A stretch of DNA of 54,058 nucleotides from a virus: IMG/VR virus record IMGVR_UViG_3300031776_000001, positions 1-54,058 of that record. The stretch is one strand, 5' to 3'. The position numbers and the translations under genes are program-made. Positions 1-52,023 of this stretch are shown here, in pieces. The notes under the pieces are model-generated. The model was not told the DNA's origin. It saw nothing but the letters and a program-made list of their open reading frames with translations, and searched no databases. Position 1 is the stretch's first letter, and the number at the start of each line of letters is the position of its first letter.

Positions 1-1626
1 AGCCCAGGGCACCAGGACCTCACGCGTCACCTCGGGGTCGAGGTAGGCGAGATCAGCCAAGACCCTCTCGTTCTCCCGTTGCGGATTCTCGATACCCAGA
101 AACTCGTCGCGGGCCGTCTCCAGGGAGATCAGCTTCTTGTCGGTGAGCAACGCCGCCAGCTGCGCCATCTGGACGCGGTCTCGCGGTGCCACCTTGCGGA
201 ACCTGACCACGGTGCGGGTGCCCACGGCAGCCACGAGATCTGGGGTAATGGCATTCCCCGACACCAGACGCCCCGTCAAGGGATCGCGCACTAGATACCC
301 CACTGGGCCATCATGGAGATCCCGAATCAGCTCCAGAGCACGCTGGTTCACCTGCTCGATCACTTGCTCCAACACCCGCGTCAGCGGGTGCAGCGTATCC
401 ATGGCAGCATCAGTCTGGAGCGTCAGCGCAAAGCCGGAGCCTTGGCCCACGCCCCAGAGGACACCCGGCAACCCTCCCTTCTCCACGTCATCCACCAGCG
501 CCTGCATCACCGGCGCCGCATTGGCCGGGTTGGGAGTCACCTGGAGCACATCCACCCGCTCCCTGTCGAAGTAGAGGAAGTTGGTGGCACCCGCCGACAG
601 CTTGATGGGCTGCGGGTTGTCAGGGCGGGCCGGATCGTAGTAGTAGACGGTGGGCGGGTTGGCGACTCTGGCCACCTCCGTCGCGAGTTGTGAGATGAGA
701 CGGTTCAGTTGGCGATAGGCTCGCTTGATGCCATGGAAGATGGAGACGCCCACCTCTTGTGTCCAGTGCTGCTGGTCACGGAAGGTGGCCCGGATGGGAG
801 CTCCCAAACCGGTGGCGACAATCCAGGGCACGAAACCATACCCATGCTCCGTGGGTGGCTTGATCTCGATTCCATCCACCTCCAGCGCATGCCACCAGTC
901 GTCGTAATAGGCCTGCACCTCGACAATATGATCCTCATCGCGCCCCGAGAGTGCCTTCTCCGCCTCGGGCCACTCATCCAGGATCTCCCCTACCGTTGCC
1001 CAGTAGCGGTGCACCACGTAACGGAGCCCGTTGGTTCCCAACTGTGGGTAGACCTGCCGCGGGTCACAGACATGGAGCTCCACCGGCAGCTCCCCCGCCG
1101 GTGCATCGGCGTTGTAGGAGATCCGGATGGTCACCCATCCCCGCAGGCAGAGAAAGTGGGCGATGTCGCGGAGCAGCGGGCCATGTAGCCCTTGCATCCA
1201 GCGACGGTCCCAGACCTCCCAGGCATAGCGCAGGAAGTCCTCGATGGCCTGAGCCGCCTCCCGCAACCGGCTGTGCGGCGGCACGGCATCGATGGATGGC
1301 AGCTGCTTGGACAGAATCGACGATGCCTTCTCCACCAGCACCCACGGGATGTTGCGGATCACCACCTCTCCCTCGCCCTGGGGGATATCGGTCATCCGGT
1401 AGAGCGAGAGATCTTCATCCATCCGCTGGTCACGGAGGGCCCAGAACTCCGTGGCGCGCTGCACCAGTGTCTGGATCTGTTCCCGCGTCGGCTTGCGCCG
1501 CCGAGGGTGCCGCTCCTCCTCCTCGGTAGCCGAGGGCTCCAACAGCCCTTGCACCTCGGCCATCCCCTCGGCGATCCGCCACAAACCCTCTGGATTCTCT
1601 TCTGGAGGCTGCGGGGGCAGTACCAT
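1..1626 (-). CDS. Portal protein, partial (left copy, C-terminus cut by window start)
   Basis: This is the N-terminal part, about 542 codons, of the portal protein whose complete copy lies at 50088-52010; the shared part is identical. The window begins inside the gene, so the stop codon is missing here. The start is taken at the ATG beginning MVLPPQPPEE, because the Shine-Dalgarno sequence GAAAGGAGGGG lies just upstream of it and inside the nine-codon longer alternative. The gene follows TerL after 13 bases. This is the same locus as the right copy and is not a second portal. Confidence 0.85.
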   Translation of the reverse strand, partial: MVLPPQPPEENPEGLWRIAEGMAEVQGLLEPSATEEEERHPRRRKPTREQIQTLVQRATEFWALRDQRMDEDLSLYRMTDIPQGEGEVVIRNIPWVLVEKASSILSKQLPSIDAVPPHSRLREAAQAIEDFLRYAWEVWDRRWMQGLHGPLLRDIAHFLCLRGWVTIRISYNADAPAGELPVELHVCDPRQVYPQLGTNGLRYVVHRYWATVGEILDEWPEAEKALSGRDEDHIVEVQAYYDDWWHALEVDGIEIKPPTEHGYGFVPWIVATGLGAPIRATFRDQQHWTQEVGVSIFHGIKRAYRQLNRLISQLATEVARVANPPTVYYYDPARPDNPQPIKLSAGATNFLYFDRERVDVLQVTPNPANAAPVMQALVDDVEKGGLPGVLWGVGQGSGFALTLQTDAAMDTLHPLTRVLEQVIEQVNQRALELIRDLHDGPVGYLVRDPLTGRLVSGNAITPDLVAAVGTRTVVRFRKVAPRDRVQMAQLAALLTDKKLISLETARDEFLGIENPQRENERVLADLAYLDPEVTREVLVPWA

Positions 1627-1639
1627 GGCCCCTCCTTTC

Positions 1640-3193
1640 TCACCATTGGTCATACGCCATGCGCCGGACCACTGGCTCAGGGCGCTCCAGGCGCCGGAAC
1701 GGTGGCAGGTTCACGAAGAAGTACTCCACCGCGCTGCGCAGATGCGAGGTCCCATCATGAATGGGCCTGCCACGCTCATCCTTGCGGGCCCGGCTCATCG
1801 CCTCATCGACGAGGGAAGCATCGACAGCACTCCCTGGGTTCACATTGACCACCACGCGCCGGATCCCGATTTCGGTGAGTTGCTTGCGGGTAAGATAATC
1901 CCGCGCCTTCTGGTTGGTGAAGACGTAGATCCCATGCTGCTTCAAGATGTCCAGCACCGAGAGCCCAGTCCCCACATGACGGTTGCCCCCTGCTGGATCA
2001 CCGAAGTGGATCGGCTTGGCCCACTTGCGGTGGGCCTGGATCTTGGCCCTCTCGTCCATGCTGTAGAGGTGCTCCCGCTCCGGCTCCAGCTCCCCCGTCA
2101 CGAAGGGGATGAACCAGTCCACCGGCATATCGCGGCGCTGGATGGCATCGAGGCAGACCACCTCATCCCGCTCACGATTGACCTGCCACCAGATGATGCA
2201 GGTGGTGTCGAGCCCGAAGTCCCAGCTGCAGTAGAGCAGCGCATTGGGATCATACTCCCGCTGCTCCCGCCGCACTCCCTGCCACCCCGGGTAGACCAGA
2301 TCCCCCTGGTCCACGTAGGGATCCATCTCCAGCTCCTGCAGGATCTCCTCCCGCGTCTTGCGCTCCAGCTGCCGCTGGTACCAGGCCTCATCCTTGCGGG
2401 GATGCAGGCGCCAGTGCAACTGGAGGCGGGGAATCTGGCCTGACTCCCAGAGGCGCCAGAACAGGTTGTCGGCCCCGTTGACAGTGGAAACGGCGATGCG
2501 ACACCGTGTGGCCTCGGAGGCAGAGCGCCAGGCCCGCTCCTGGGTATTCTTCTCCCAGTGCGCCAGCTCATCGATGAAGATCACCGAGAACCGCCCCTGG
2601 CGCCCAAAGTTCCCCTGCGACGACTCCCCCTTGATGGCGGAACCGTTAGCGGGATTGATCAGCTTCATGTGGAAGCGATGCTTGCGTGGCAGGAACCCCT
2701 CAGGCTTGAGCCAGCTGGGCAGCCGCTCCAACATGTAGTCGAGCCTGCCGAAGTGGGAATCCGCCAAGCGATTATCCACCAGGTCCTCGGTACGGGATCC
2801 GATGAGAGCCTGAAAACCTTGGTCGAAGAGCCAGTGCCAGAGTAACCAAGCCATCGCCACCCAGCTGGCACCCATGTCGCGAGACTTCAGGACGATCCCA
2901 TCTTCCTGGTTGCGATAACGCTCCTCGTACCAGCGGATGAGATCCACCTGGAACTCGTAGAGGATGAAGGGGAGATGCGGCGTCTTGCCACTCTCCAGTT
3001 CACGAGGGTCGAAGGTCCACAGAGCGAAGTTGCAGAACCAGGCTGGATCCTCGCGACAACGGCGGCTGATCTCCTCGCGCAGCATGGGATCCCGGTGCGC
3101 CTGCACTGTCAAGAGGCCACGCTCCCGCAGAGTGGGTGGGCGGTCCGGGATCAGGATCCCGCCTCGTGGAGACGCGCTAGCCACCGTGCCCAC
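1640..3193 (-). CDS. terL: Terminase large subunit (packaging ATPase/nuclease), left copy
   Basis: This is the motor that pumps and cuts phage DNA at the portal during head filling. The 517 residues carry an ATPase domain with a deviant Walker A (LKSRDMGAS, residues 102-110), Walker B with catalytic Glu (VIFIDE, 204-209) and the AVSTVNG coupling motif. The C-terminal RNase H-like nuclease shows SWDFGLD (323-329) and HFGDPAGG acidic motifs. The start is a GTG. A second GTG at 3184 is spaced better from the GGAGGAGG ribosome site, so the protein may be three residues shorter. It overlaps TerS by 43 bases. It differs from the right copy at five residues, all in the N-terminal half. Confidence 0.92.
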   Translation of the reverse strand: MGTVASASPRGGILIPDRPPTLRERGLLTVQAHRDPMLREEISRRCREDPAWFCNFALWTFDPRELESGKTPHLPFILYEFQVDLIRWYEERYRNQEDGIVLKSRDMGASWVAMAWLLWHWLFDQGFQALIGSRTEDLVDNRLADSHFGRLDYMLERLPSWLKPEGFLPRKHRFHMKLINPANGSAIKGESSQGNFGRQGRFSVIFIDELAHWEKNTQERAWRSASEATRCRIAVSTVNGADNLFWRLWESGQIPRLQLHWRLHPRKDEAWYQRQLERKTREEILQELEMDPYVDQGDLVYPGWQGVRREQREYDPNALLYCSWDFGLDTTCIIWWQVNRERDEVVCLDAIQRRDMPVDWFIPFVTGELEPEREHLYSMDERAKIQAHRKWAKPIHFGDPAGGNRHVGTGLSVLDILKQHGIYVFTNQKARDYLTRKQLTEIGIRRVVVNVNPGSAVDASLVDEAMSRARKDERGRPIHDGTSHLRSAVEYFFVNLPPFRRLERPEPVVRRMAYDQW

Positions 3194-3735
3194 TCCTCCT
3201 CCGATGCATCCTCCGGCGGCAGGGCCCCCATGAGCTCCTGATCCCGCTCTTGCCGCTGCTCCGTCTCCCGCATGATCTCCCGCGTCATGGTGGTGGTGGA
3301 GAGCCTGACGATGCCGACTCGGTCCAGCCAGGTCTCGATAGCCTTGAGCTTGATCTCCTGACGCCCTTCTTGGAGCAGCGTCACGAACTGTTCCAGCACC
3401 AGCGGGGCCAGGACCGCCAGATCCTCCAACACCCTGGTGCGCAAGGTGGCGAGGTTGCGGAGCTCCTTCTCTTGCTGCTCCGCGTCATAGAGCTGCGCCT
3501 GCTCATACCAGCGATCCTCGCGAGACCACCGGTACAAGAGCTCCTTGTTGGTGGTGGGAATATCCCGCCGCAGCCCCAGGCTGCCATCAGGATCACGACG
3601 ACGACGGCTCACGTACTCCCGCCAGAGCCCTTCCACACTGCGCCGGGGTCCCATGGCCAGGAAGTCGGTGAGGGCACGCTGCCGACGGAGGTACTCCTTG
3701 GTACCCGGATTGGCTCCGTAGATCTGCACCGTCAT
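3151..3735 (-). CDS. terS: Terminase small subunit
   Basis: Probable DNA-recognition subunit of the packaging terminase. The 194 residues contain a helix-turn-helix-like segment around TNKELLYRWSREDRWYEQA (about residues 60-80), followed by long charged helices and an acidic tail, as in many small terminases. Position is the strongest evidence: it lies directly upstream of TerL and overlaps it. GGAGGAGG precedes the ATG, and the start overlaps the stop of the 3732-4049 gene as ATGA, suggesting translational coupling. The right copy is cut by the window end and differs at a few residues (for example V-R-L versus V-K-L near residue 148). Confidence 0.78.
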   Translation of the reverse strand: MTVQIYGANPGTKEYLRRQRALTDFLAMGPRRSVEGLWREYVSRRRRDPDGSLGLRRDIPTTNKELLYRWSREDRWYEQAQLYDAEQQEKELRNLATLRTRVLEDLAVLAPLVLEQFVTLLQEGRQEIKLKAIETWLDRVGIVRLSTTTMTREIMRETEQRQERDQELMGALPPEDASEEEWARWLARLHEAGS

Positions 3736-8636: not shown

Positions 8637-8725
8637 CTCCAAGAGCGAGGGATATTGTGTAGCTGGAGCTGAGCAGGGTACATCTCCTCACCATCACGCT
8701 GATACCTGGTAGCTGGTACCTGGAA

Positions 8726-8773
8726 GCATCGTGTTACTCAGGGCGTCTTGGAAAGCCCTGAGTAACACGATGC
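8726..8773. repeat. Large palindrome 1
   Basis: Arms GCATCGTGTTACTCAGGGC (8726-8744) and its exact complement (8755-8773) enclose the 10-base centre GTCTTGGAAA. The outer 13 bases GCATCGTGTTACT are shared by all three palindromes, while the inner six (CAGGGC) are specific to this copy and matched on the other arm. Confidence 0.95.
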
Positions 8774-8872
8774 GACCTAGGAGCTTCTGGGTACCTGGAA
8801 GCCACCACATGGTTATAACACGATAAACCCAATTGCTCCTGGACACCTGGTGCTTCTAGGAACCATTGGGTC

Positions 8873-8920
8873 GCATCGTGTTACTCGAGGCTCTCCGAGA
8901 CGCCTCGAGTAACACGATGC
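8873..8920. repeat. Large palindrome 2
   Basis: Arms GCATCGTGTTACTCGAGGC (8873-8891) and its exact complement (8902-8920) enclose TCTCCGAGAC. This centre is the exact reverse complement of the centre of palindrome 3, so copy 2 is in inverted orientation. The inner arm bases (CGAGGC) differ from copies 1 and 3 with full compensation. Confidence 0.95.
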
Positions 8921-8972
8921 TACCTGAGGGTTCCTGGTTAACGCATTACCTGGTACCAGGTACTGGGTTGCA

Positions 8973-9020
8973 GCATCGTGTTACTTAAGGCGTCTCGGAG
9001 AGCCTTAAGTAACACGATGC
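8973..9020. repeat. Large palindrome 3
   Basis: Arms GCATCGTGTTACTTAAGGC (8973-8991) and its exact complement (9002-9020) enclose GTCTCGGAGA. Three more flanking bases (GCA/TGC) also pair, so the arms reach 22 bp. A solitary partial half-site, TAACACGAT, occurs at 8816-8824 between copies 1 and 2. Confidence 0.95.
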
Positions 9021-9184
9021 TGCCCCATGGGATCCCATTGGCTACCTGGATACCAGCTGCTATCGAACTAGTACCATGATACCCATGGGTATCTAGAGGC
9101 CCCTTATGGTTCCTATATGGGGCTCGATGTGTTCAAACGAAATTCAGGTGGATCCCAGGGAGCAGGATGTAACCTGGTAGCAGC

Positions 9185-19457: not shown

Positions 19458-20456
19458 GCGGCAGGGGGAGGTGACATGGGCGGAAGGATCTACCCAATTA
19501 CCGGTAGCTCCTGAGAGCCGAGGTGGGGCAAGGTGGGCAGCGTGGCGGGAGTGCACCATGGTGGACCAGCCTGGTGCGAGGGAGGCAGCGACCTCGACGC
19601 AGGCACTGGCGGCAGCAGCAACCCTCGAGGAGTCGGGTGCCAGCGTGACTCAATGGACCTAGCACAGTACCGGGAGTTCATGAGAACCAACCTGCCGGGC
19701 CCTCGAGGAGGGCACCGCCACTGCGCCAGGAGCAGACTGCCACCACGACAGCACTGGTGGCGCCGACTCAACACGCGGCCTGATGCCAGCTGCACCTGCG
19801 CACCCTGTCCACCGGTGGAGCGGCAGGCAGGCAGCTAGAGCACTGGCAACCCCTTGGCCCCTGATCTGCCTCCGCTCCAGCACCACCAGCGCTCACTACC
19901 ACCCACACCAGCCAGTCGCAGCAGTTGGATCAGCTACCAAAGGTTTGGGAGCAGTCACCTGCACCAGGTACCCCTACCCAGTACCCGTTGTGCTGGGATA
20001 CCCTACCCCAGTACCCGCTGCAGGTAGGGGCATACGGTACCGGGGTATCAGCACAAACGCAGCGCCAGGGCGCGCAAAGTTGTGACAAGGGGGCAGGGGT
20101 AGGGAGTTTGGGGGTACTGGTAGGGGGTATGGGCGCAATCCCTTGCCCACTGCCCTGTTGCCCCACCGCCAATCCTCACCCACTGCCCCGCAACCCGCAG
20201 TAGCCCGCAGCAACCTCGTCTCCTGCCCCTGCGTCCCCTCAATCCCACTCCATCCTGCCCTGGCCACCTGCCCTCGCCACCTACCCCGGCTGTGTCCACC
20301 GTCACCACCTCCCACCTCCCCTACCTGTGCCTCAAGGTCACACACCATTCTCGTACCGGCCCCGCAGAGCTTTGCTTTGGGTCCCTCTGAGATCCGCGTC
20401 GCGACGCCAATGTTGGAGGCAAGAAACGAATCCGAAAAATTCCCCCTCGAAACCCC

Positions 20457-20485
20457 TTGACAACCGCTCCCACAGGTGCTATAAC
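20457..20485 (+). promoter_or_regulatory. Near-consensus promoter of the second rightward operon
   Basis: TTGACA (20457-20462) is followed after 17 bases by TATAAC (20480-20485): six and five consensus matches at optimal spacing. It is the strongest promoter-like sequence I find in the window. It would start a transcript near 20492 with a leader of about 290 bases. Confidence 0.85.
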
Positions 20486-20784
20486 GGTACCAGAAGACAA
20501 GAGCGGCACCACCCGGCCCCCCCCCCCTCGAGACGAGGGGCCAGGAACAGGAGCCGCACCGGCATCCACCAGCAAGCCACGTCACCCGGTGCCGGGCACC
20601 TTGACAAGCGAGACGGTCACCTCTGGGTGCTGTGACAGCACTCGGAGCCTCGAGAACCGAAGCTGGCCAGCGTGGCGTCGAGGGAGCCACCAGCCAGCTT
20701 CGTGGGAGCAGGAGTTGAACCGGGGTGCGACTCCCCGGGCTCCCAGAGGTAGGTACGGTTCTCGAGTCCGTAAGGAGGGACACC
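20486..20784 (+). promoter_or_regulatory. Long structured mRNA leader
   Basis: Between the promoter and the first ATG lie at least five hairpins. They are CCCCTCG-AGA-CGAGGGG (20524-20540), GTGCT-GTGAC-AGCAC (20627-20641), CGAAGCTGGC ... GCCAGCTTCG with an inner GTGGC/GCCAC (20658-20702), a tRNA-like minihelix (20703-20745), and TACGG ... CCGTA (20754-20772) directly abutting the ribosome site AGGAGGG. A tract of about 13 C residues precedes the first hairpin. The hairpin touching the Shine-Dalgarno sequence suggests translational control of the first gene. Confidence 0.6.
20703..20745 (+). ncRNA. tRNA-like acceptor/T-arm minihelix in the leader
   Basis: TGGGAGC (20703-20709) pairs with GCTCCCA (20739-20745) over seven bases, the length of a tRNA acceptor stem. 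Inside it, CCGGGG-TGCGACT-CCCCGG (20720-20738) mimics a T arm with a seven-base loop. The D and anticodon arms are replaced by the ten bases AGGAGTTGAA. It may be a decayed tRNA or a functional tRNA mimic in the leader. Confidence 0.5.
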
Positions 20785-21105
20785 ATGGTCAACCTCATGC
20801 AGCAGGCGGAAATGATCCGCGAGCTCCGCCGCAACCGCGCCATCCAGATGTTCTACCAGGAGGTGGCAGCCCTCGCTCTGGCCGATGCCATCAGCCAGTG
20901 CTGGTTCCAGCTCACCGGTGAGCGCCTGGATGAGACCGACGCACTCCACCTGGCCAAGGTCGCGATGGAGCACCTCCCTGACCAGTCCTGGATCACCATC
21001 GGCAGCTGGTTCCGGAGCCAGAATGGCAGCCACCGCGACCTCCTCAACCACGAGGCCGACGCGGAGATCCTGGTCTACCGCCTCCGCGACCTCGGCTACC
21101 TCTGA
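20785..21105 (+). CDS. Hypothetical protein, first gene of second rightward operon
   Basis: A 106-residue, mainly helical protein (MVNLMQQAEMIRELRRNRAI ... EVAALALADAISQCWFQLTG ... LLNHEADAEILVYRLRDLGYL). The start at the ATG after AAGGAGGGACACC is unambiguous. I recognise no family. As the first gene behind the strongest promoter and a long structured leader it is probably made early and abundantly, as host-takeover or anti-defence proteins often are, but that is inference from position only. Codons here favour C in the third position, unlike the replication operon. Confidence 0.72.
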   Translation: MVNLMQQAEMIRELRRNRAIQMFYQEVAALALADAISQCWFQLTGERLDETDALHLAKVAMEHLPDQSWITIGSWFRSQNGSHRDLLNHEADAEILVYRLRDLGYL

Positions 21106-21118
21106 TGCCCACTCCCTT

Positions 21119-21214
21119 CCCTCCCTTCCCCAGCAGCTGCGGGTGTCACCCAGCACCCGCAGCGTCGAATGGGACCTCTTGCCAGAGAGGTGCCAGGGAA
21201 ACTGGAAAGGAGGG
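21119..21214 (+). promoter_or_regulatory. Repeated structured 5'-UTR element, copy A
   Basis: A pyrimidine tract (21119-21129) is followed by the conserved CCCCAGC, then stem 1 GCTGCGGGTG/CACCCGCAGC (21136-21163). The linker GTCGAATGG leads to stem 2 ACCTCT/AGAGGT (21174-21191). Stem 3 is CCAG-GGAAA-CTGG (21193-21205), directly followed by the ribosome site AAAGGAGGG (21206-21214). CCCTCC of the tract can pair with GGAGGG of the ribosome site, closing a multi-branch junction. The ATG of the next gene is six bases on. Confidence 0.7.
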
Positions 21215-21219
21215 AACCG

Positions 21220-21699
21220 ATGGTGCAGATCCATGGTCTCGAAATCGAAATCTTCGACGGCGCAGAAGAGAAGGGGGCCAAGATGGCAGGACACCAGGTC
21301 AGCGCAGTGATCCGGCAAGTGGTGGGCAAGCCCCAGCCCCAGCGCAAGGCGGTGGCTGAGTTCGGTGCCGCCAGCGACGTCACCGCTCTCCGCGACATGA
21401 TTGCAGCCTGGCTGGAGCAGCTCCAGAGCGACCTCTATGCACCCCTGGCTCAGCAGACAGGCAAGATGCCCCGCTGGTTCGCTGAGCATGATGCTCAGCA
21501 GATGCTCGACGGGAAGTGGGTTCAGATCGGGTGGCTCAACTCCCGTTCCCACACCATCACCACCCAAGCTCAGGGGCGCGTCATCGACTGGATCCAGGGA
21601 GCCATCGTCTTCTATGACCCGGAGCAGGACACCATCTACTACCCCATCTTCCTGGTCGCCGAGATCCGCCGTCGGCGCGCTCCCCGCGGAGCCCGCTAG
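21220..21699 (+). CDS. Hypothetical protein downstream of UTR element A
   Basis: A 159-residue protein (MVQIHGLEIEIFDGAEEKGA ...). The N-terminal half is charged and mixed; the C-terminal half (GWLNSRSHTITTQAQGRVIDWIQGAIVFYDPEQDTIYYPIFLVAEIRRRR) reads as a small beta-rich domain. The start is set by AAAGGAGGGAACCG. No family recognised. Its translation is likely governed by the structured element just upstream. Confidence 0.72.
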   Translation: MVQIHGLEIEIFDGAEEKGAKMAGHQVSAVIRQVVGKPQPQRKAVAEFGAASDVTALRDMIAAWLEQLQSDLYAPLAQQTGKMPRWFAEHDAQQMLDGKWVQIGWLNSRSHTITTQAQGRVIDWIQGAIVFYDPEQDTIYYPIFLVAEIRRRRAPRGAR

Positions 21700-21706
21700 C
21701 CCAAGA

Positions 21707-21798
21707 CTCCTTCCCCAGCGGCTGGGGGCAGCCAATCGGCTCCCCCAGCGTCGAATGGTGTGGCAACAGGGCCACATCAGGGAGACTGGAAAGGAGGG
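21707..21798 (+). promoter_or_regulatory. Repeated structured 5'-UTR element, copy B
   Basis: The pyrimidine tract CTCCTT (21707-21712) precedes CCCCAGC. Stem 1 is GCTGGGGG/CCCCCAGC (21721-21749), the linker GTCGAATGG is identical to copy A, stem 2 is TGTGGC/GCCACA (21759-21776), and stem 3 is TCAG-GGAGA-CTGG (21777-21789, one G-T pair). The ribosome site AAAGGAGGG (21790-21798) can pair with CTCCTT of the tract. Stems 1 and 2 share no sequence with copy A yet pair fully. Confidence 0.7.
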
Positions 21799-21803
21799 CA
21801 ACC

Positions 21804-22184
21804 ATGACTCGACGATTGCGCCAGCAAGCAGCGCTGGAGCGCTCACTCGGCACCATGATCACCCAGGCACTCTGGGGCAAGCCCACGACACGACGCAACG
21901 CCGACTCCCGCAAGCGAGTGGCCAAGATCATCCAGGCAGAGCTGGTTGCGCAAGCTCTCCCCATCGTGGGGAGCCAGGAGCTGGCTCAGCAGGTTGCCTA
22001 CCTCGCTTGCCAAGATCCCGCCGCGATGGTGCAGGTCTTCCTCGGCGATGCCGACACCATCAAGCGGCTGGCAGAGAAGGCTGCCACCATGCCGGAGCCT
22101 CCCCAGTCACCGACTCTCGAGGAGCTGATCCCGGTAGCCGAAGAGGCGATGCAGATAGTGCGGAGTCTCTTGGCAACACGATGA
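21804..22184 (+). CDS. Hypothetical helical protein downstream of UTR element B
   Basis: A 126-residue, nearly all-helical protein starting MTRRLRQQAALERSLGTMITQALWG. The first 45 residues are basic. The centre (ELVAQALPIVGSQELAQQVAYLACQDPAAMVQVFLGD) has repeated Ala/Leu helices. A proline hinge (MPEPPQSPT) separates a final helix. AAAGGAGGG precedes the ATG. No family recognised. Confidence 0.7.
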   Translation: MTRRLRQQAALERSLGTMITQALWGKPTTRRNADSRKRVAKIIQAELVAQALPIVGSQELAQQVAYLACQDPAAMVQVFLGDADTIKRLAEKAATMPEPPQSPTLEELIPVAEEAMQIVRSLLATR

Positions 22185-22197
22185 AAGGAGGGCACCC

Positions 22198-22602
22198 ATG
22201 AAGCGGCTCTACAGCCTCGAGAAGGAACTGGCCAAGATCCTGGATCCCCGGCCACCGCGTCCACGCCGCCAGCCACTCTCCCCTGAGGCTATCCGCTCCA
22301 TCGCAGTCCAGGGCTGCCTCGAGTACCTGGCTGACATGACAGAGTCCCGCGAGGGCGCTGAGGCCCAGCGGCTCCTGGCTGAACTCGAGGCGCTCCCCGT
22401 GAACCGACTCGGCGACTCCATCCTCACCTCGATGGAGAACCTGCTGATCAACAAGCACCGCCGCGGCGGCCTGATCTTCCAGACACTGCGCCAGCGCGCA
22501 CCGGAGCGCCTGGGCCGCGGCTATGCCATGTACCGGCTCCTCCAAGATCCGGACCTGGTGGTGGAGGAACTCTTCTGGGACTACCTCGACTACCAGCCCT
22601 GA
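22198..22602 (+). CDS. Hypothetical protein
   Basis: A 134-residue protein starting MKRLYSLEKELAKILDPRPP, with AAAGGAGG upstream in the 13-base gap after the preceding gene and no structured element. A proline-rich segment (DPRPPRPRRQPLSPE) is followed by helices ending LFWDYLDYQP. No recognised domain. The gene before and the UTR element after it (copy C) frame it as part of the same operon. Confidence 0.7.
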   Translation: MKRLYSLEKELAKILDPRPPRPRRQPLSPEAIRSIAVQGCLEYLADMTESREGAEAQRLLAELEALPVNRLGDSILTSMENLLINKHRRGGLIFQTLRQRAPERLGRGYAMYRLLQDPDLVVEELFWDYLDYQP

Positions 22603-22619
22603 CGCTTACCCATTCCCCT

Positions 22620-22706
22620 CCCCTTCCCCAGCGGCGGTGGGTGCCCCAGTGGGCACCTGCCGCGCCGACTGGCACCAGTGCGGTGCCAGGGAGACTGGAA
22701 AGGGGG
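22620..22706 (+). promoter_or_regulatory. Repeated structured 5'-UTR element, copy C (orphan)
   Basis: The tract CCCCTT (22620-22625) precedes CCCCAGC. Stem 1 is GGTGCCC-CAGT-GGGCACC (22640-22657) with outer GCGGC/GCCGC pairs. The linker is GCCGACTGG, stem 2 TGGCACC/GGTGCCA (22670-22688) and stem 3 CCAG-GGAGA-CTGG (22686-22698). The ribosome-site-like AAAGGGGG (22699-22706) can pair with the tract; both have changed together relative to copies A and B. Stems 2 and 3 share three bases, so they compete. No start codon lies at normal distance; the next gene begins 62 bases further with its own AAAGGAGG. Confidence 0.65.
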
Positions 22707-22768
22707 TCACGCGGATACCACTGGCTGTCCACCAGCGCAGGCGCGGCGAGTCACTGAAAGGAGGTCAC

Positions 22769-23011
22769 ATGAGCATCGATCCCGTTGCCCTCATCGAGTT
22801 CCTCGAGGATGCCCTGAAGGGTGTCCATGAGGAGTCAGCCCGCCACTGGATCCGCGCCGCCATCCAGCACCTGGCGGAGGGATCCCAGCCACGGTGGGTG
22901 GCAGCCGCCGCTGCCTGCCTCCACGAGGCAGCGCGCTGCACCACCCACCCCAGCTACCGGAACTGGTTGCGGTCCATGGCAGCTCATCTCGAGAAGGAGG
23001 TCTGGTCATGA
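22769..23011 (+). CDS. Hypothetical helical protein
   Basis: An 80-residue protein starting MSIDPVALIEFLEDALKGVH, set by AAAGGAGGTCAC upstream. It consists of three or four helices with regularly spaced alanines and aromatic residues (WVAAAAACLHEAARC ... YRNWLRSMAAHLEKE), like a small helical bundle. The stop overlaps the next start. It follows the orphan UTR element C by about 60 bases. No family recognised. Confidence 0.68.
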   Translation: MSIDPVALIEFLEDALKGVHEESARHWIRAAIQHLAEGSQPRWVAAAAACLHEAARCTTHPSYRNWLRSMAAHLEKEVWS

Positions 23012-23430
23012 AGGATCCACGCTACACGATTGATCGCCTCTCCCGCAACGACAAGGTGGTGGTGAAGGGCCTCGACTCCCTGGCCCTGCACCTGGCTGAC
23101 CTCGAGATCCTGATGAAGGACCTCGAGCTCCCCCTGGCTCAGGAGTACGGCTCCCAGACGGCGTACCTCCTCAACTACCTGCGCCTGGCACTGGAGGCCG
23201 AGGTCCAGGCAGCCAAGATCCTCGAGAAGGTCTCCTCGGCTGCCGACACCCCCGACACCCGGATTGCCCTCCAGGCCCTCCGCCGCTGCTCCGAGGCCAT
23301 CCGGATCCTGGCCTACCGGCGCCTGGAGTGCCTGTGGGAGGTCCTGGCGCTCCGCGAGGGCAGCCGCGACGAAGCAGATCTCGCCAAGCAGCTCATCGAC
23401 GAGTTGCACCTGAGCCCGGCGATTCACTGA
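23008..23430 (+). CDS. Hypothetical four-helix-like protein
   Basis: A 140-residue protein starting MKDPRYTIDRLSRNDKVVVK, coupled to the upstream gene by an ATGA overlap with GAGAAGGAGG as ribosome site. The sequence is an alternation of long amphipathic helices (LALHLADLEILMKDLELPLA, YLLNYLRLALEAEVQAAKIL, CSEAIRILAYRRLECLWEVL). Ferritin-like metal ligands are not evident. No family recognised. Confidence 0.7.
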   Translation: MKDPRYTIDRLSRNDKVVVKGLDSLALHLADLEILMKDLELPLAQEYGSQTAYLLNYLRLALEAEVQAAKILEKVSSAADTPDTRIALQALRRCSEAIRILAYRRLECLWEVLALREGSRDEADLAKQLIDELHLSPAIH

Positions 23431-24708: not shown

Positions 24709-25171
24709 GCTGGTCCGCTTCGGTAAGCGAATTCCTGTCTGGTTGGACGCCACCGTCGCCGAGGAGCTGCAGCGGATCTTGCTCCCGGGCACCCACCCTG
24801 CCACCATGCTCCGTCTCCTCATCCGCGCTGCCCTGCATGAGCTCCGCGAGGCCCAGCTCTCTCCAGGGGTGCGGTCCCTGGCCTCGCTCTGCTGGGCTGC
24901 AGTGGCTGCCCGGCGACGGAGGCCAGCCATCATCGAGGTCCTGCCCCGCCTCGTCGATGAGCACCTGGAGGCTCTGGGTGCGAGTTACGCCACCCGCGCC
25001 AAGGTCTATGCCCTGCTGCTGCCGCTGTCTCCATTGCAGCGCCTAGCCCTCCTCGTCGAGGGAGCCCACCAGGCGCGCCAGGCGCTGGCCCCCAGGGCAC
25101 CGGTGCCAGCCGCCACTGGTGGGCCGCAAGACAAACCAGAACCGGATCAGGAAGGAGGTCACGATGGGTAA
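24701..25171 (+). CDS. Possible ribbon-helix-helix protein with helical extension
   Basis: A 156-residue protein. Residues 1-45 (FGKRIPVWLDATVAEELQRILLP ... PATMLRLLIRAALHELRE) fit a beta strand followed by two helices, the ribbon-helix-helix DNA-binding plan. The rest is helical with an Ala/Arg-rich centre and a Pro/Gly-rich tail that overlaps the next gene. It could be a transcription regulator of the operon. The resemblance is by pattern only. Confidence 0.5.
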   Translation: MPELVRFGKRIPVWLDATVAEELQRILLPGTHPATMLRLLIRAALHELREAQLSPGVRSLASLCWAAVAARRRRPAIIEVLPRLVDEHLEALGASYATRAKVYALLLPLSPLQRLALLVEGAHQARQALAPRAPVPAATGGPQDKPEPDQEGGHDG

Positions 25172-25682
25172 ACTCGCCAAGTTCCATGAGCATGGGCTCC
25201 CGGACCAGGTGGACTGGGAGGCGGTGCGCACCACCGTCCTCCAGTGCCTCGGAGCTCAGCCACCCTATCCACCGGAGCACTTCTGGGCCATCGACCCCAG
25301 TGGCGCGGTGCGGGGGGCCTGGGTGGGTGACGAGGAGTCGGTGACCATCCCCTTCCGCGAGCTGGGCAAGCTCTACCAGGCGGTGCTGGTCCACTCCCAC
25401 CCACCCGGCTGCCCACCCACGGTGGACGATGCCTACCTCGGCGTCATGGCTGCCTCGCCGCTCCTCGTCATCATCGAGGGAGAGACAGCCCACCTCGTCA
25501 CTGTCTGGCATGACCGGTCTCCTGGCTACATGGCCGCGCTCCTCTGGGATGCACCAGATCTCACCACCGGGCTCAACCTGGTCAGGGGCAACTGGACCAG
25601 GTCCAACCTGGCAGGCCTCGGCGAGGCCATCCAGCACCTGGCAGCGCGTTGGCAGCAGTTCCTGGCGAGTCTGGAGGGCTGA
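25164..25682 (+). CDS. JAMM/MPN-like metalloprotein
   Basis: A 172-residue protein starting MGKLAKFHEHGLPDQVDWEA, with AAGGAGG upstream. The segment LVHSHPPGCPPTVDD (H77, H79, T86, D89) resembles the JAMM zinc signature H-x-H-P ... S/T-x-x-D, and the preceding strand (YQAVLVHSH) and following helix-strand (AYLGVMAASPLLVIIEG) match the JAB/MPN fold used by deubiquitinase-like peptidases and RadC. A catalytic Glu could be supplied by the FRELG segment. Phage proteins of this fold occur in tail assembly, but this gene lies in an operon of small early-type genes, so its target is unclear. Confidence 0.55.
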   Translation: MGKLAKFHEHGLPDQVDWEAVRTTVLQCLGAQPPYPPEHFWAIDPSGAVRGAWVGDEESVTIPFRELGKLYQAVLVHSHPPGCPPTVDDAYLGVMAASPLLVIIEGETAHLVTVWHDRSPGYMAALLWDAPDLTTGLNLVRGNWTRSNLAGLGEAIQHLAARWQQFLASLEG

Positions 25683-29349: not shown

Positions 29350-31236
29350 TCATCCGATGAACACTATCTGCAACCGGTTGAAGAGCCCAGCTGATGACTC
29401 GGTGGTGCTGGACCTAGCGGTTCCGCACCAGATCACCACGCTGATGGCGTCGTTGGCGGAGCAGGACAGCAGGATCTGCCCCTGAGCCAGGACGAAGTCG
29501 TTGGTGTTGATGTTCTGGTCATAGACGAAGAAGGTGGTGGTGTTCCGCCGCACCCGCAGTGACACTCTCCCACCACCACTGACGCCGTTCAAGAGCACCG
29601 CCACCATGATCAGGTAGAGCCCCGCGAGGCCCACCGTGTAGAGGTGGTTGGTGTTGTCCCAGCTCCCCGGCCCCACCAGGCTCACCGCGTTGGGGAAACT
29701 CACCACCGTCTCGGTGGAGGCAGCGAAGCTCTGCGACGTGGTCTTGCCGCGAAAGAGGAAGGGGCGGTTGCTAGTGGTCACATACCCGGTGACCGCCAGG
29801 TTGCCGCTGATGGTTCCCCCGCTGGTTTGGAGGAAACTGGACGCATGCAGCCCATCCACCAGGTCCGCATTGAGGTTAGTGCAGAGTGTCCCGTTGGAGA
29901 CTGGCACCTGGTTACTGGAGTTTCCGGCATGGTAGTTGTCCAAAAGATCCGCATGCAAGTTGGAGCCCGACCCCTGTGGCGACACCGCCACCGTCACCGT
30001 CTTGGTGCTGGTGTTGGCCGAGAGGCTGATGTTGCTCCCAGCGCTGAACCGGATGGTATCCGTCGGAGCGCTGGCAGCGATGTTGGTGCTGCCCACCTGC
30101 ACCACCGAGTAGGCATCCTGGTTCTGGAGCGTCGAAGCATGGACACCATCCACCAGGTCCGCATTCAGGTTGGTGCAGACCGTGCCGTTGGAGACCGGGA
30201 TCTGGTTGTTGGCGTTACCCGCATGGTAGCTGTCGAGAAGGTCGGCGTGGAGACCTGAGCCTGCACCCTGTGGTGAGACGGCTATCGTCACCTGCTTGGC
30301 CGACGTGTTGGGCGTCAGCGTCACATTGCTCCCCGCCACCAGCCTGAGGGTGTCCCCCGGATCCGTGGCCGCCACGTTGGTGCTCCCGACCTGCACCACC
30401 CCGTAGCTATTGACACTGCCCCCACCACCCGTGGCGGCGATGGTGACCCGTTTGTTGCTGGTGTCCGGCGTCAGCGTCACATTGGAGCCTGCCACCAGCT
30501 CCACCGTATCCGTCTTGGTGGTGGCCGCGATGATGGTGGTGCCCACCTTCACATTGGAGAAGGCAGGCTGGTTGACCTCCGCACCCGCCTGGATCCCATC
30601 CAGCTTGCTCTTGTCGGCGCTACTCATGAAACCTGCGCTGGTTGACGTGGCGTTGGGATGGGTGTGCGAGGCCGCGGCAAAGGCGCTGGCGTGAGCACCA
30701 TCGACGGTGTCGGCATCCAGCCCAGATCCGGCCCCTTGGGGCGACACCCCCAGCGTCACCCGCTTGTTGCCGACATCCGGTGTCAGTGCCAGGTTGCTCC
30801 CCGCCACCAGGGTGAGGGTATCGGTCTTGCTGGTGGCCAGGATCCCGGTGGATCCGACACGGACCTCGGAGAAGGCAGGCTGGTTGACCTCGGCCCCGGC
30901 CTGGATCCCATCCAGCTTGCTCTTGTCATCCGGGCTCATGAACCCCGCGGCACTCGAGGTGGCATTGGGGTGACTGTGGGCCGCTGCCGCAAAGGCGCTG
31001 GCATGGTTCCCATCGAGGAGGTCGGCGTCCAGCCCAGAACCCTCTCCCTGCGGTGTGATATCCCCCGGGGCATGGGTGTGCGCGGGGATGGCCACCTGAC
31101 GGGCTACCCAGCGCCCCTTGGTCGCGTCCCAGAGCAAGAGTGCCCCATCGGTGGGGGTGCCAGAGATCTCGACATCCAAGAGCTGGCGCAGGCGGGTGCC
31201 GCGAGGGATCACTCGTTGAAATGTCTCCTCGGCCAT
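29350..31236 (-). CDS. Tail fibre with repeats and C1q-like head
   Basis: A 628-residue fibre. The N-terminal 60 residues (RGTRLRQLLDVEISGTPTDG) probably attach to the tail. Then come repeated shaft units AGFMSxxDKSKLDGIQAGAEVNQPAFSxVxVG, alternating with GSGLDADxLDGxHAS and AGSNVTLTPxTSxKxVTIA strands. The last 140 residues (RPFLFRGKTTSQSFAASTE ... YTVGLAGLYLIMVAVLLNG ... LQIVFIG) resemble a C1q/TNF-like trimeric head for receptor binding. The shaft type is shared with the 31847-33589 fibre, so the two are paralogues. GGTGAGGAGG precedes the ATG. Confidence 0.85.
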   Translation of the reverse strand: MAEETFQRVIPRGTRLRQLLDVEISGTPTDGALLLWDATKGRWVARQVAIPAHTHAPGDITPQGEGSGLDADLLDGNHASAFAAAAHSHPNATSSAAGFMSPDDKSKLDGIQAGAEVNQPAFSEVRVGSTGILATSKTDTLTLVAGSNLALTPDVGNKRVTLGVSPQGAGSGLDADTVDGAHASAFAAASHTHPNATSTSAGFMSSADKSKLDGIQAGAEVNQPAFSNVKVGTTIIAATTKTDTVELVAGSNVTLTPDTSNKRVTIAATGGGGSVNSYGVVQVGSTNVAATDPGDTLRLVAGSNVTLTPNTSAKQVTIAVSPQGAGSGLHADLLDSYHAGNANNQIPVSNGTVCTNLNADLVDGVHASTLQNQDAYSVVQVGSTNIAASAPTDTIRFSAGSNISLSANTSTKTVTVAVSPQGSGSNLHADLLDNYHAGNSSNQVPVSNGTLCTNLNADLVDGLHASSFLQTSGGTISGNLAVTGYVTTSNRPFLFRGKTTSQSFAASTETVVSFPNAVSLVGPGSWDNTNHLYTVGLAGLYLIMVAVLLNGVSGGGRVSLRVRRNTTTFFVYDQNINTNDFVLAQGQILLSCSANDAISVVIWCGTARSSTTESSAGLFNRLQIVFIG

Positions 31237-31255
31237 GGCTCCTCCTCACCCGCTC

Positions 31256-31837
31256 TCAGTGCATCACCCACTGTGACCCGTTCCAGCGCTTGACCGGGAG
31301 CCAGACCCAACGGGTGCCGTCCCAGCGCTTGACGGGATGCTTGACCCATGAGGTGCCGTTCCAGCGCTTCACACCCGTACCGCGGTTGTAGACCAGGTAG
31401 GCACCGATCCGCCCCGAGTGGGCAGTGCCACCCGTGGCAGTACTGATGCCACCAGTGGACGTCTTGTGGTAGTGGGTGCCCCCGCTCCCGTAGCTCCAGA
31501 CCGCCTGGCCACTGGGGTTGCGCCACCAGCCGACATAGTACTCCCAGCCGTACTGGGTGACCATGGGCTCGAAGGTGACCTCGGTCCAGGACTGGCCTCC
31601 TGTATTGTTGCCACCCGTCGGGAAGGTCACTGAAACGGAGCGCAACAGGTTCCCCTGGTAATCCCAGACGCAGACGTAGCCGGTGACAGGTCCACCACGT
31701 CCACCGACATAGACACCCGCGCCAGTGATGATACCCCCCTCAGGCATCACGATCTTCTCGGACCAGATCTGGTTCTCGTAGTTGACGCCAGTCCACTCCC
31801 AGGATGACCAGGGCCCAGTGTAACCGACCTGCGGCAT
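31256..31837 (-). CDS. Small fibre/tip protein with three C-terminal 13-residue repeats
   Basis: The 193 residues form a beta-rich domain (about 1-150: WTGVNYENQIWSEKIVMPEGG ... GYVCVWDYQGNLLRSVSVTF ... YYVGWWRNPSGQAVW), like a jelly-roll carbohydrate-binding module. Three tandem repeats follow: VKRWNGTSWVKHP (156-168), VKRWDGTRWVWLP (169-181) and VKRWNGSQWVMH (182-193). Such short WNG-type repeats occur in phage fibre and bacterial surface proteins. It lies between two fibre genes, so a receptor-binding or fibre-tip role is likely. Confidence 0.75.
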   Translation of the reverse strand: MPQVGYTGPWSSWEWTGVNYENQIWSEKIVMPEGGIITGAGVYVGGRGGPVTGYVCVWDYQGNLLRSVSVTFPTGGNNTGGQSWTEVTFEPMVTQYGWEYYVGWWRNPSGQAVWSYGSGGTHYHKTSTGGISTATGGTAHSGRIGAYLVYNRGTGVKRWNGTSWVKHPVKRWDGTRWVWLPVKRWNGSQWVMH

Positions 31838-31846
31838 GTTCCCCTC

Positions 31847-33589
31847 CTAGGACAGCACGGTGCTGGTGTCGATCCAGATGTCACCAGTGCGGGCATCCGA
31901 GGGCGCGGAGCTCTGGACATAGATCCGGCCACCTTGCAGGTTGTTGGCACTGCGGTAGACCACCAGATCATCGCCGCTCCCACTGGAGCCGATGCGGGCC
32001 ACGAGGCGCCCTCCACCTGAGACCACCCAGATCCGCCCCATCTCGTTGCCGGATCCATCTACGAAGATGATGGCTCCTGGCGCGTTGGAGGTGCTGCCAC
32101 CAGCCCGGAGGTGCAAGTTCTTGCTGGAGCCGATGATGAGATCCCCGCTCATCGTCCCACCACTGGTCTCGAGGTAGTTGGGGTGGGTGTGCGAGGCGGG
32201 AGCGAAGCTGGTGGCATGGTAGCCGTCCACCATGTCGGCATTCAGGTTGTTGCAGAGGGTGCCGTTGGACACCGCTACCTGGTTACTGGAGTTCCCAGCC
32301 CGGTACCCATTGACCATCTCAGCATTGAGCCCCGTTGCGCTGAGGGCGATGGTCACCGTCTTGGTAGTGGCATTGGCCGAGAGGCTGATGTTGCTCCCCG
32401 CTGACAGTGCCAGCGTATCCGTCTTGCTGGAGGCCGCTATCGTCGTGGAGCCCACCGCCACGTTGGAGAAGGCATTCTGGTTCACCTCGGCACCCGACTG
32501 GATCCCGTCGAGCTTGCTCTTGTCGGAGCTGGACATGAATCCCGCCGCACTCGAGGTGGCGTTGGGGTGGGTGTGCGTCGCCAGGGCAAAGGCACTGGCA
32601 TGCTGCCCATCCAAGAGGTCGGCGTCCAGACCAGAACCGGCTCCTTGGTTCAGGGCCAGCGTCACCGTCTTGGTCGTGTTGTTGGGCGTCAGGGTGAGCT
32701 GCGTCGTGTTGCTGGCCAGCGTCAACCGGTCATTCCCAGTGGTGGCTTCCACATCGGTGGTGCCGACGCGAACCTTACCGTAGTTGATGAGACCAGACGA
32801 GGAGGACAGGGCATCCAGGCGGCTCTTGTCGGTAGCGCTCATGAACCCGGCACTGGTGGTGGTGGCTACCGGGTGCGTATGATCAGCTGCCGCCGCACCG
32901 ATGGCCGCAGGTGTCAAGGCATCAGGTCCCCCCGCCGCATGGCGGCTGGCATGGTTGGCCAGCGCCGACAAGGTGATGGGAACCGTATCGGACCAGTTGG
33001 TGGTGCCCAGGATCTCGCGGATCCGCTTGACCAGCCAGGAGAGGATCTGCGTCAAGCTCCCCGTGTTGGCGTAACTCGTGGAGGTTCCCTGGTCCACGGT
33101 GCGGTTGCCGATTTTGGCATCCGTCACCGCCCCATCGGCAATCTTGGCAGAGCCGACAGCACCATCAGCGATGGCCGCAGCGTTGACGGCGCCATTGGCC
33201 AGCTTGGTGCTGGTCACCGCGCCACCCGCCAGCTTCACCGTCGTCACCCCACCATCGGCCAGCTTGGCAGTGGTGACTGAGCCATCAGCCAGCGGCGAGG
33301 CTCCACCCGGGCCGAAGAGTGCCAGCACCTGGAAACGGATCCCACTCTTGATCCAGCGCACCGTGTTGGTCGCCGGATCCAGAAGCTCTATGTCATAGCG
33401 CCCAGTGGGAGAGGCCAGCGTCTCGGTGTTGACGGACAACTCCCAGTAGCCAGTGCCCGAGGCACTGGAGGTCTCCACGAAACTGGAGCCCAGCGTCCCA
33501 TCAGTGTTCACCGGATAGGCCCGGACACGCACCCCTCCCAGAGGTGCCCCCTCGCGGAAGGCATAGCCACTGAAGACCAGAACCGCCAT
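31847..33589 (-). CDS. Tail fibre with collagen-like and DKSKLDGI-type repeats
   Basis: A 580-residue fibre. Residues 1-90 (MAVLVFSGYAFREGAPLGG ... YPVNTDGTLG ... YWELSVNTETLASPTGRYDIELLDP) look like an Ig/carboxypeptidase-regulatory-type domain for tail attachment. A run of ADGSVTTAKLADGGVTTVKLA pentads-of-strands (about 95-160) gives a beta-helical shaft. The later region repeats TSAGFMSxxDKSxLD and GSGLDADLLDGQHASAF, as in the neighbouring fibre. The C-terminal 100 residues (NLHLRAGGSTSNAPGAIIFV ... IWIDTSTVLS) form a distinct tip. Confidence 0.83.
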   Translation of the reverse strand: MAVLVFSGYAFREGAPLGGVRVRAYPVNTDGTLGSSFVETSSASGTGYWELSVNTETLASPTGRYDIELLDPATNTVRWIKSGIRFQVLALFGPGGASPLADGSVTTAKLADGGVTTVKLAGGAVTSTKLANGAVNAAAIADGAVGSAKIADGAVTDAKIGNRTVDQGTSTSYANTGSLTQILSWLVKRIREILGTTNWSDTVPITLSALANHASRHAAGGPDALTPAAIGAAAADHTHPVATTTSAGFMSATDKSRLDALSSSSGLINYGKVRVGTTDVEATTGNDRLTLASNTTQLTLTPNNTTKTVTLALNQGAGSGLDADLLDGQHASAFALATHTHPNATSSAAGFMSSSDKSKLDGIQSGAEVNQNAFSNVAVGSTTIAASSKTDTLALSAGSNISLSANATTKTVTIALSATGLNAEMVNGYRAGNSSNQVAVSNGTLCNNLNADMVDGYHATSFAPASHTHPNYLETSGGTMSGDLIIGSSKNLHLRAGGSTSNAPGAIIFVDGSGNEMGRIWVVSGGGRLVARIGSSGSGDDLVVYRSANNLQGGRIYVQSSAPSDARTGDIWIDTSTVLS

Positions 33590-50087: not shown

Positions 50088-52010
50088 TCACACCAAGCCC
50101 GGGATCTCCCCAGCTCCCGGCAGCGGCTCCACTCCCGGCACTCCCGGCGGTGCCTGTTCACCTTGACCACCCGCTACCGAGGCCTGCGAGTGCTGCAACA
50201 GGTTCATGAGCGTGGCCAGCTGCGGTGGCAGTACTTGTGGCGGTGGTACCGCGGGTGACACTCCAGCGGGGGCACTCGCGCCACTCTCACCAGGCGGCGC
50301 TGACTCCTTCTGGCTCTGCCGCAGCTCCTTCTGCAGCTTGGCCTGTCGCCAGAGTTCATAGAGCACCGGATCAGTGCGCGCCAGAGCCCAGGGCACCAGG
50401 ACCTCACGCGTCACCTCGGGGTCGAGGTAGGCGAGATCAGCCAAGACCCTCTCGTTCTCCCGTTGCGGATTCTCGATACCCAGAAACTCGTCGCGGGCCG
50501 TCTCCAGGGAGATCAGCTTCTTGTCGGTGAGCAACGCCGCCAGCTGCGCCATCTGGACGCGGTCTCGCGGTGCCACCTTGCGGAACCTGACCACGGTGCG
50601 GGTGCCCACGGCAGCCACGAGATCTGGGGTAATGGCATTCCCCGACACCAGACGCCCCGTCAAGGGATCGCGCACTAGATACCCCACTGGGCCATCATGG
50701 AGATCCCGAATCAGCTCCAGAGCACGCTGGTTCACCTGCTCGATCACTTGCTCCAACACCCGCGTCAGCGGGTGCAGCGTATCCATGGCAGCATCAGTCT
50801 GGAGCGTCAGCGCAAAGCCGGAGCCTTGGCCCACGCCCCAGAGGACACCCGGCAACCCTCCCTTCTCCACGTCATCCACCAGCGCCTGCATCACCGGCGC
50901 CGCATTGGCCGGGTTGGGAGTCACCTGGAGCACATCCACCCGCTCCCTGTCGAAGTAGAGGAAGTTGGTGGCACCCGCCGACAGCTTGATGGGCTGCGGG
51001 TTGTCAGGGCGGGCCGGATCGTAGTAGTAGACGGTGGGCGGGTTGGCGACTCTGGCCACCTCCGTCGCGAGTTGTGAGATGAGACGGTTCAGTTGGCGAT
51101 AGGCTCGCTTGATGCCATGGAAGATGGAGACGCCCACCTCTTGTGTCCAGTGCTGCTGGTCACGGAAGGTGGCCCGGATGGGAGCTCCCAAACCGGTGGC
51201 GACAATCCAGGGCACGAAACCATACCCATGCTCCGTGGGTGGCTTGATCTCGATTCCATCCACCTCCAGCGCATGCCACCAGTCGTCGTAATAGGCCTGC
51301 ACCTCGACAATATGATCCTCATCGCGCCCCGAGAGTGCCTTCTCCGCCTCGGGCCACTCATCCAGGATCTCCCCTACCGTTGCCCAGTAGCGGTGCACCA
51401 CGTAACGGAGCCCGTTGGTTCCCAACTGTGGGTAGACCTGCCGCGGGTCACAGACATGGAGCTCCACCGGCAGCTCCCCCGCCGGTGCATCGGCGTTGTA
51501 GGAGATCCGGATGGTCACCCATCCCCGCAGGCAGAGAAAGTGGGCGATGTCGCGGAGCAGCGGGCCATGTAGCCCTTGCATCCAGCGACGGTCCCAGACC
51601 TCCCAGGCATAGCGCAGGAAGTCCTCGATGGCCTGAGCCGCCTCCCGCAACCGGCTGTGCGGCGGCACGGCATCGATGGATGGCAGCTGCTTGGACAGAA
51701 TCGACGATGCCTTCTCCACCAGCACCCACGGGATGTTGCGGATCACCACCTCTCCCTCGCCCTGGGGGATATCGGTCATCCGGTAGAGCGAGAGATCTTC
51801 ATCCATCCGCTGGTCACGGAGGGCCCAGAACTCCGTGGCGCGCTGCACCAGTGTCTGGATCTGTTCCCGCGTCGGCTTGCGCCGCCGAGGGTGCCGCTCC
51901 TCCTCCTCGGTAGCCGAGGGCTCCAACAGCCCTTGCACCTCGGCCATCCCCTCGGCGATCCGCCACAAACCCTCTGGATTCTCTTCTGGAGGCTGCGGGG
52001 GCAGTACCAT
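50088..52010 (-). CDS. Portal protein (complete copy)
   Basis: The portal is the twelve-fold ring through which DNA enters and leaves the head. The 640 residues start at the ATG with GAAAGGAGGGG. Residues 40-110 (TEFWALRDQRMDEDLSLYRM ... EVVIRNIPWVLVEKASSILS) form the wing and clip entry seen in many portals. The middle has a helix-rich core (FLRYAWEVWDRRWMQGLHGP) and long helical C-terminal segments (FRKVAPRDRVQMAQLAALLT, the barrel/crown type). The end is a Pro/Gln-rich tail. It directly follows TerL. Its left part recurs as 1-1626. Confidence 0.85.
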   Translation of the reverse strand: MVLPPQPPEENPEGLWRIAEGMAEVQGLLEPSATEEEERHPRRRKPTREQIQTLVQRATEFWALRDQRMDEDLSLYRMTDIPQGEGEVVIRNIPWVLVEKASSILSKQLPSIDAVPPHSRLREAAQAIEDFLRYAWEVWDRRWMQGLHGPLLRDIAHFLCLRGWVTIRISYNADAPAGELPVELHVCDPRQVYPQLGTNGLRYVVHRYWATVGEILDEWPEAEKALSGRDEDHIVEVQAYYDDWWHALEVDGIEIKPPTEHGYGFVPWIVATGLGAPIRATFRDQQHWTQEVGVSIFHGIKRAYRQLNRLISQLATEVARVANPPTVYYYDPARPDNPQPIKLSAGATNFLYFDRERVDVLQVTPNPANAAPVMQALVDDVEKGGLPGVLWGVGQGSGFALTLQTDAAMDTLHPLTRVLEQVIEQVNQRALELIRDLHDGPVGYLVRDPLTGRLVSGNAITPDLVAAVGTRTVVRFRKVAPRDRVQMAQLAALLTDKKLISLETARDEFLGIENPQRENERVLADLAYLDPEVTREVLVPWALARTDPVLYELWRQAKLQKELRQSQKESAPPGESGASAPAGVSPAVPPPQVLPPQLATLMNLLQHSQASVAGGQGEQAPPGVPGVEPLPGAGEIPGLV

Positions 52011-52023
52011 GGCCCCTCCTTTC

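Follow-up and report, generated by a model that had tools for sequence, protein, structure and literature searches.

The whole stretch of DNA analysed, hereafter the window, is a 54,058-base IMG/VR virus record encoding a terminase, DnaB helicase, family A DNA polymerase, primase, tail-fibre proteins, and an amidase, and it therefore represents a tailed phage. The nearest relatives found were prophages of bacterium HR28 and of a further genome from the class that includes Thermalbibacter longus (Thermomicrobia), together with two IMG/VR contigs (3300020567_000320 and 3300049992_000041), so the host is probably a member of the Thermomicrobia, which are heat-loving bacteria. The ends of the window repeat one another (1–3674 and 50385–54058; offset, 50384), with 2338 identical bases followed by 58 differences, all within the last 1336 bases, suggesting that two strains contributed to the assembly of a circular or circularly permuted genome. 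Diverged internal repeats occur in the tail-fibre gene region (29833–32697), and three palindromic repeats (GCATCGTGTTACT..AGTAACACGATGC), whose inner hairpins all differ, lie at 8722–9040; the palindromes had no counterpart among the other loci compared and are possibly operators or a replication site.

Within a rightward early operon, three copies (A–C) of a structured element occupy the gaps after gene 1, gene 2, and gene 4 (Table 1), and the short gap before gene 4 holds no copy. The promoter assigned to this operon is omitted by the consensus promoter scan, which demands a final T. Together with the ACGGTACCAGAAGRCAAGAG that follows it (20457–20510), it is near-identical in four related phages, though the surrounding leader differs. 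No plus-strand terminator was found in 20200–23100.

Table 1. Window positions of the early operon features and of the parts of element copies A–C.
Feature	Position	Strand	Remarks
Probable early promoter	20457–20485	+	TTGACA-17-TATAAC, by eye; heads the operon with the copies; kept in three relatives
Gene 1	20785–21105	+	106 aa, no assigned function; upstream of copy A
Copy A	21118–21217	+	Tract 21118–21129; P1 CCAG 21130–21133; P2 21136–21163; J2/3 GTCGAA 21164–21169; P3 21170–21195; J3/1 GGGAAA 21196–21201; P1′ CTGG 21202–21205; SD 21207–21213; 66.3 bits
Gene 2	21220–21699	+	159 aa, no assigned function; starts 14 nt past copy A CTGG; ends 15 nt before copy B CCAG
Copy B	21703–21801	+	P1 CCAG 21715–21718; P2 21721–21749; J2/3 GTCGAA 21750–21755; P3 21756–21779; J3/1 GGGAGA 21780–21785; P1′ CTGG 21786–21789; SD 21791–21797; 73.5 bits
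Gene 3	21804–22184	+	126 aa, no assigned function; starts 14 nt past copy B CTGG
Gene 4	22198–22602	+	134 aa, no assigned function; ends 25 nt before copy C CCAG
Copy C	22616–22710	+	P1 CCAG 22628–22631; P2 22634–22663; J2/3 GCCGAC 22664–22669; P3 22670–22688; J3/1 GGGAGA 22689–22694; P1′ CTGG 22695–22698; G-rich tract 22700–22706; start codon absent at the usual distance; 74.4 bits
Gene 5	22769–23011	+	80 aa, no assigned function; first gene past copy C, 70 nt beyond CTGG; own SD

The three copies lie where an earlier note on this DNA had located them and share CTTCCCCAGC, GTCGAATGG (GCCGACTGG in copy C), and CAGGGARACTGGAAAGGRGG. All fold more stably than their dinucleotide shuffles (z = −4.46, −4.25, and −2.90 for A, B, and C, respectively). 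The fold consists of hairpins P2 and P3, of unrelated sequence, around an invariant core of three strands: CCCCAGCR (CCCCGGCG in one copy), GYCGAM followed by UG, and CA-GGGARA-CUGG. A model search of positions 8,000–30,000 with filters off returned A–C at 75–85 bits and no fourth copy, the next best score being 14.7 bits.

Using pattern scans of viral and genome contigs, followed by the covariance-model search that the earlier note had proposed (model R1, built from ten trimmed copies), 12 further copies that keep the P2/P3 pairing were found, giving 15 copies in eight records: three in the window, two each in L004, L005, HR28, and G126, one each in Thermalbibacter longus and G122, and two in an Acidobacteria MAG (on two contigs). 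Besides the single MAG, the homologues are carried by two related phages from IMG/VR, by prophages in two Thermomicrobia genomes, and by integrase-linked elements in a further two. Copies left out of R1 were still recovered (Thermalbibacter, 46.8 bits; second Acidobacteria copy, 40.8 bits), the G122 and G126 copies were likewise recovered with R1, and the top score among 20 negative control contigs matching a loose core pattern was 13.1 bits. The Thermalbibacter and G122 copies each come after a SWIM-like gene transcribed divergently, which adjoins an HTH regulator and either an integrase or a serine recombinase (protein names partly by eye).

Looser DNA patterns in viral contigs gave only chance matches beyond L004 and L005 (L006–L008, L038–L057, and L098, judged by models R1 or R2), and weak model matches in Thermomicrobia and other genomes of the phylum (L034–L036 and L067) were G-rich palindromes or coding sequence. 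Two conserved operon proteins used as IMG/VR queries yielded no new phages, and the G126 and G122 relatives of one conserved operon protein lie outside this operon and have no element copy. A search of 396 genomes of the phylum of the Acidobacteria record returned only the MAG already known, and BLAST searches among phage and plasmid records were unproductive.

Across the alignment of all 15 copies (A7), standard pairs filled 95.2% of the proposed cells, compared to 38–52% with the partner slid by 1–3 columns and a match in 0 of 500 shuffles, and both sides changed at 17 of 24 pairs, including 12 of the 14 P2/P3 pairs (8/8 in P2, 4/6 in P3). Such pair counts are biased towards the proposed structure, from which the model was derived; the P2/P3 pairings had been noted by eye from single sequences before the model and still hold in unrelated letters. 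With near-duplicates removed, 163 of 165 P2/P3 cells were paired. The covariation check suggested in the earlier note was run with APC-corrected G statistics, in which the top six of 3,596 column pairs were all proposed P2/P3 pairs. Its observation that the first two stems carry different letters and yet pair in each copy thus extends to the 12 homologues at a level beyond chance. On the coding strand, G–U pairs outnumber A–C mismatches (10 versus 1), and the model scores no more than 14.7 bits on the reverse strand, so the sense strand is the folded strand. The comparison strongly supports a selected RNA structure, one preserved as a fold while its letters differ.

The third hairpin of the earlier note ('stem 3', CCAG-GGARA-CTGG) fared less well, having lost its outer pair in three of the 15 copies. 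The CA of this hairpin is part of P3, where the third pair covaries, and its CUGG could pair instead with the 5′ CCAG. The better supported arrangement is the predicted three-way junction with CCAG/CUGG as its closing helix; it was the more stable of the two folds in 11 of the 15 copies, stem 3 coming second overall. The CCAG/CUGG core of P1 is near-invariant, so that covariation speaks neither for nor against it. Support for the outer P1 helix is moderate (its best pair ranks 17th of 3,596), aided by Thermalbibacter (CGUG/CACG) and G122 (CCGU/ACGG), where other letters close the helix and the SD is uninvolved; the two Acidobacteria copies have no such extension. An alternative helix (CCC/GGGA in place of CCAG/CUGG) was clearly favoured only in Acidobacteria copy L009 and was about equal in L019, and K-turn and T-loop readings of the junction, considered by inspection only, were not adopted.

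Though described at first as 5′ UTR elements, the copies instead fill intercistronic gaps. The CCAG starts 3–31 nt past the upstream stop codon in 12 copies and 10 nt past it in the second L004 copy, with the two HR28 copies farther away. A start codon follows CTGG in 11 of the 15 (+14 in six, +12 in one, +19 in two, and +5 in two), and is absent there from copy C, the second G126 copy, the first HR28 copy, and the second L004 copy, all of which keep the structure. At these four places (window 22699–22768; L058 after 10223; L061 after 5717; L063 after 14840) a GGGGGU run replaces the GGAGG-type SD and the tract pairing is kept. Orthologues of gene 1 in L058, L061, and L062 likewise precede an element copy, and the gene that comes after gene 1 varies: gene 2 in the window, an orthologue of gene 4 in G126, and a gene 3-like protein in L005. 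Since position is conserved while the next gene varies, this suggests a control module tied to the operon slot and not to one protein.

The pyrimidine tract can indeed pair with the SD in A, B, and C, and can do so in all 11 phage copies (duplex energies, −5.6 to −17.9 kcal/mol; predicted SD-region pairing at 37 °C, 0.51–0.98). The compensating change of tract and ribosome site that had been read into copy C was not significant: tracts paired no better with their own SDs than with swapped ones among the 11 phage copies (permutation p = 0.33), p = 0.007 being reached only with the four outside copies added. No start codon stands at the SD of copy C, the next gene starting at 22769 with an SD of its own. 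Predicted SD occlusion was 0.73 for five element-linked starts and 0.62 for 91 other SD-bearing starts from the same GC-rich loci (p = 0.20), a control chosen mechanically that takes in some doubtful ORFs. The SD may thus be occluded by the tract helix. Action as an RNA thermometer finds no support, in that SD pairing in the phage copies is predicted to change little between 37 and 65 °C and the core is invariant.

A search of Rfam 15 returned only a tRNA in the window at gathering thresholds, nothing plausible in the region at E ≤ 10, and no match in six homologue-bearing loci at E ≤ 1; literature searches gave no description of this RNA element, in keeping with the first impression that no described class has this plan. 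The architecture had also been likened to that of a riboswitch or translational operator. A selected, undescribed structure stands and the likeness is plausible. Its SD-hiding helix can form in all 11 phage copies, but the SD compensation (p = 0.33) and occlusion (p = 0.20) results, the two homologues closing the helix without the SD, the two without an outer helix, and the 4 of 15 copies without a start codon weigh against that helix as the means of control. The aptamer-like conserved core with covarying helices is a trait of riboswitches, whereas the downstream genes differ and point to no one pathway (gene 2, gene 3, gene 4, a 71-aa protein, a DUF3489 protein, and a weak phrog_993 match). 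A structured site that overlaps the region of initiation, as in 11 of 15 copies, is a trait of protein operators; no RNA-binding domain was found among the operon proteins scanned. In its putative working the element is most like a structured translational operator or riboswitch, and may belong to either.

Among phage translational operators, the T4 RegA, gp32, and gp43 sites (PMC3014915) likewise overlap or abut the initiation regions of early genes, and one effector serving several cistrons would be RegA-like. However, the RegA sites lack structure and are rich in A+U, and a single hairpin makes up the gp43 operator, whereas here a large GC-rich junction occurs in unrelated mobile elements, which makes a phage-encoded repressor unlikely. 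In the DNA compared, the elements outside the phage group resemble the phages only weakly, through their integrases, and the Thermalbibacter and Acidobacteria genomes lack two conserved phage proteins, so a factor encoded by the phage is unlikely, though this is not conclusive as several of the outside loci are cut by contig ends.

The preferred reading, given a probability of roughly 0.5, is an undescribed cis-acting mRNA element that would tune how the next early cistron is translated, with its junction recognised by a small molecule or a host factor. An element of ~85–100 nt in the intercistronic gaps of the early operon would be closed by P1 (CCAG/CUGG) and extended by pairing of the tract with the downstream SD region, a closure supported less firmly than P2/P3. 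The junction core, because it is invariant, is the putative site for a trans-acting small molecule or host protein. Occupancy by this factor, or a terminating upstream ribosome covering the 5′ strand of P1, would shift P1 and so set initiation of the next cistron. Several copies per operon could place several early genes under common control, and their divergent hairpins may keep the copies from recombining.

A more specific reading, tentative and somewhat unlikely, is a new class of ligand-sensing riboswitch (or a new small ribozyme) with repeated intercistronic copies in thermophilic Thermomicrobia phages and mobile elements, through which a host signal would be read without a phage-encoded partner. 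Orphan riboswitch classes built on a three-way junction, with the purine or TPP type as the structural reference, share sequence-free helices, an invariant junction, and an adjoining ribosome-binding site, but this element has no Rfam match, several intercistronic copies per operon, and a downstream gene that varies.

The four copies without a start codon help two serious rivals to the preferred reading. The first, unlikely though it appears, is action of the nascent RNA on the host RNA polymerase, suppressing pausing or termination along the early operon in the manner of HK022 put, which consists of two stem-loops near the promoter, one site per early transcript, and requires no phage protein (PMC9378689). 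Here too a structured RNA lies in a phage early operon downstream of a sigma-70-like promoter, and no common effector gene was found among the records, as expected of a host polymerase partner. The element is instead a closed three-way junction in two or three copies per operon, hundreds of nt downstream and intercistronic, and such action leaves unexplained its fixed distance to the SD and start codon and its position just past stop codons.

The second of these rivals, less probable still, is an mRNA processing or stability element, either a nuclease site or a small self-cleaving ribozyme. The early intercistronic RNase III sites of T7, single long hairpins without an invariant multi-strand core, are likewise repeated structures in the gaps of an early operon, and small ribozymes usually combine a conserved core with sequence-free helices, as this element does; moreover, it persists where no gene starts. 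An RNase III site, however, would need no invariant 20-nt core, no ribozyme in Rfam matched, and the SD spacing would be coincidental. The position between stop and start codons, the gap that is always filled, and the tract/SD pairing of the phage copies would also suit a passive structure insulating or coupling neighbouring cistrons, with the SD hidden until the upstream ribosome terminates and no ligand involved, but this is rather improbable, as it explains neither the invariant junction letters in both phyla nor the copies lacking a P1 extension or start codon. A repeat acting at the DNA level (a mobile palindrome, or a recombination or packaging site), as its repetition, inverted repeats, and occurrence in mobile elements might imply, is already disfavoured and very improbable given that G–U is tolerated on the coding strand only, that the stems within one genome are unrelated, unlike recent transposition, and that orientation is always sense with constrained spacing to stop and start codons.

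The element represents a class of structured RNA missing from Rfam; its covariation is unambiguous, it recurs within one operon, and it is common to tyrosine-integrase prophages, an element adjoining a serine recombinase, and an Acidobacteria MAG. Literature searches returned no description of phage RNA regulation for the Thermomicrobia, a little-studied thermophilic class. If the effector is a metabolite or host protein, mobile elements would read the state of the host via a common RNA fold, and the compact family with its clear core makes probing, ligand screens, and reporters straightforward.

Immediately 5′ of gene 1 lies a second structured leader (20653–20787), comprising a closing helix (GAACCG/CGGUUC), a variable hairpin, and a tRNA-like acceptor/T-arm (UGGGAGC, a 10-nt linker, and CCGGGG-UGCGACU-CCCCGG-GCUCCCA) with a T-loop-like 7-nt loop. 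This leader had no match in an Rfam search and is kept, with altered stems, in L005, HR28, and G126. Farther downstream (25164–25682), a conserved protein of the early region carries an HSHPPG motif, looks JAB/RadC-like by eye, and has no Pfam match; separate homologues of it occur elsewhere in G126 and also in G122.
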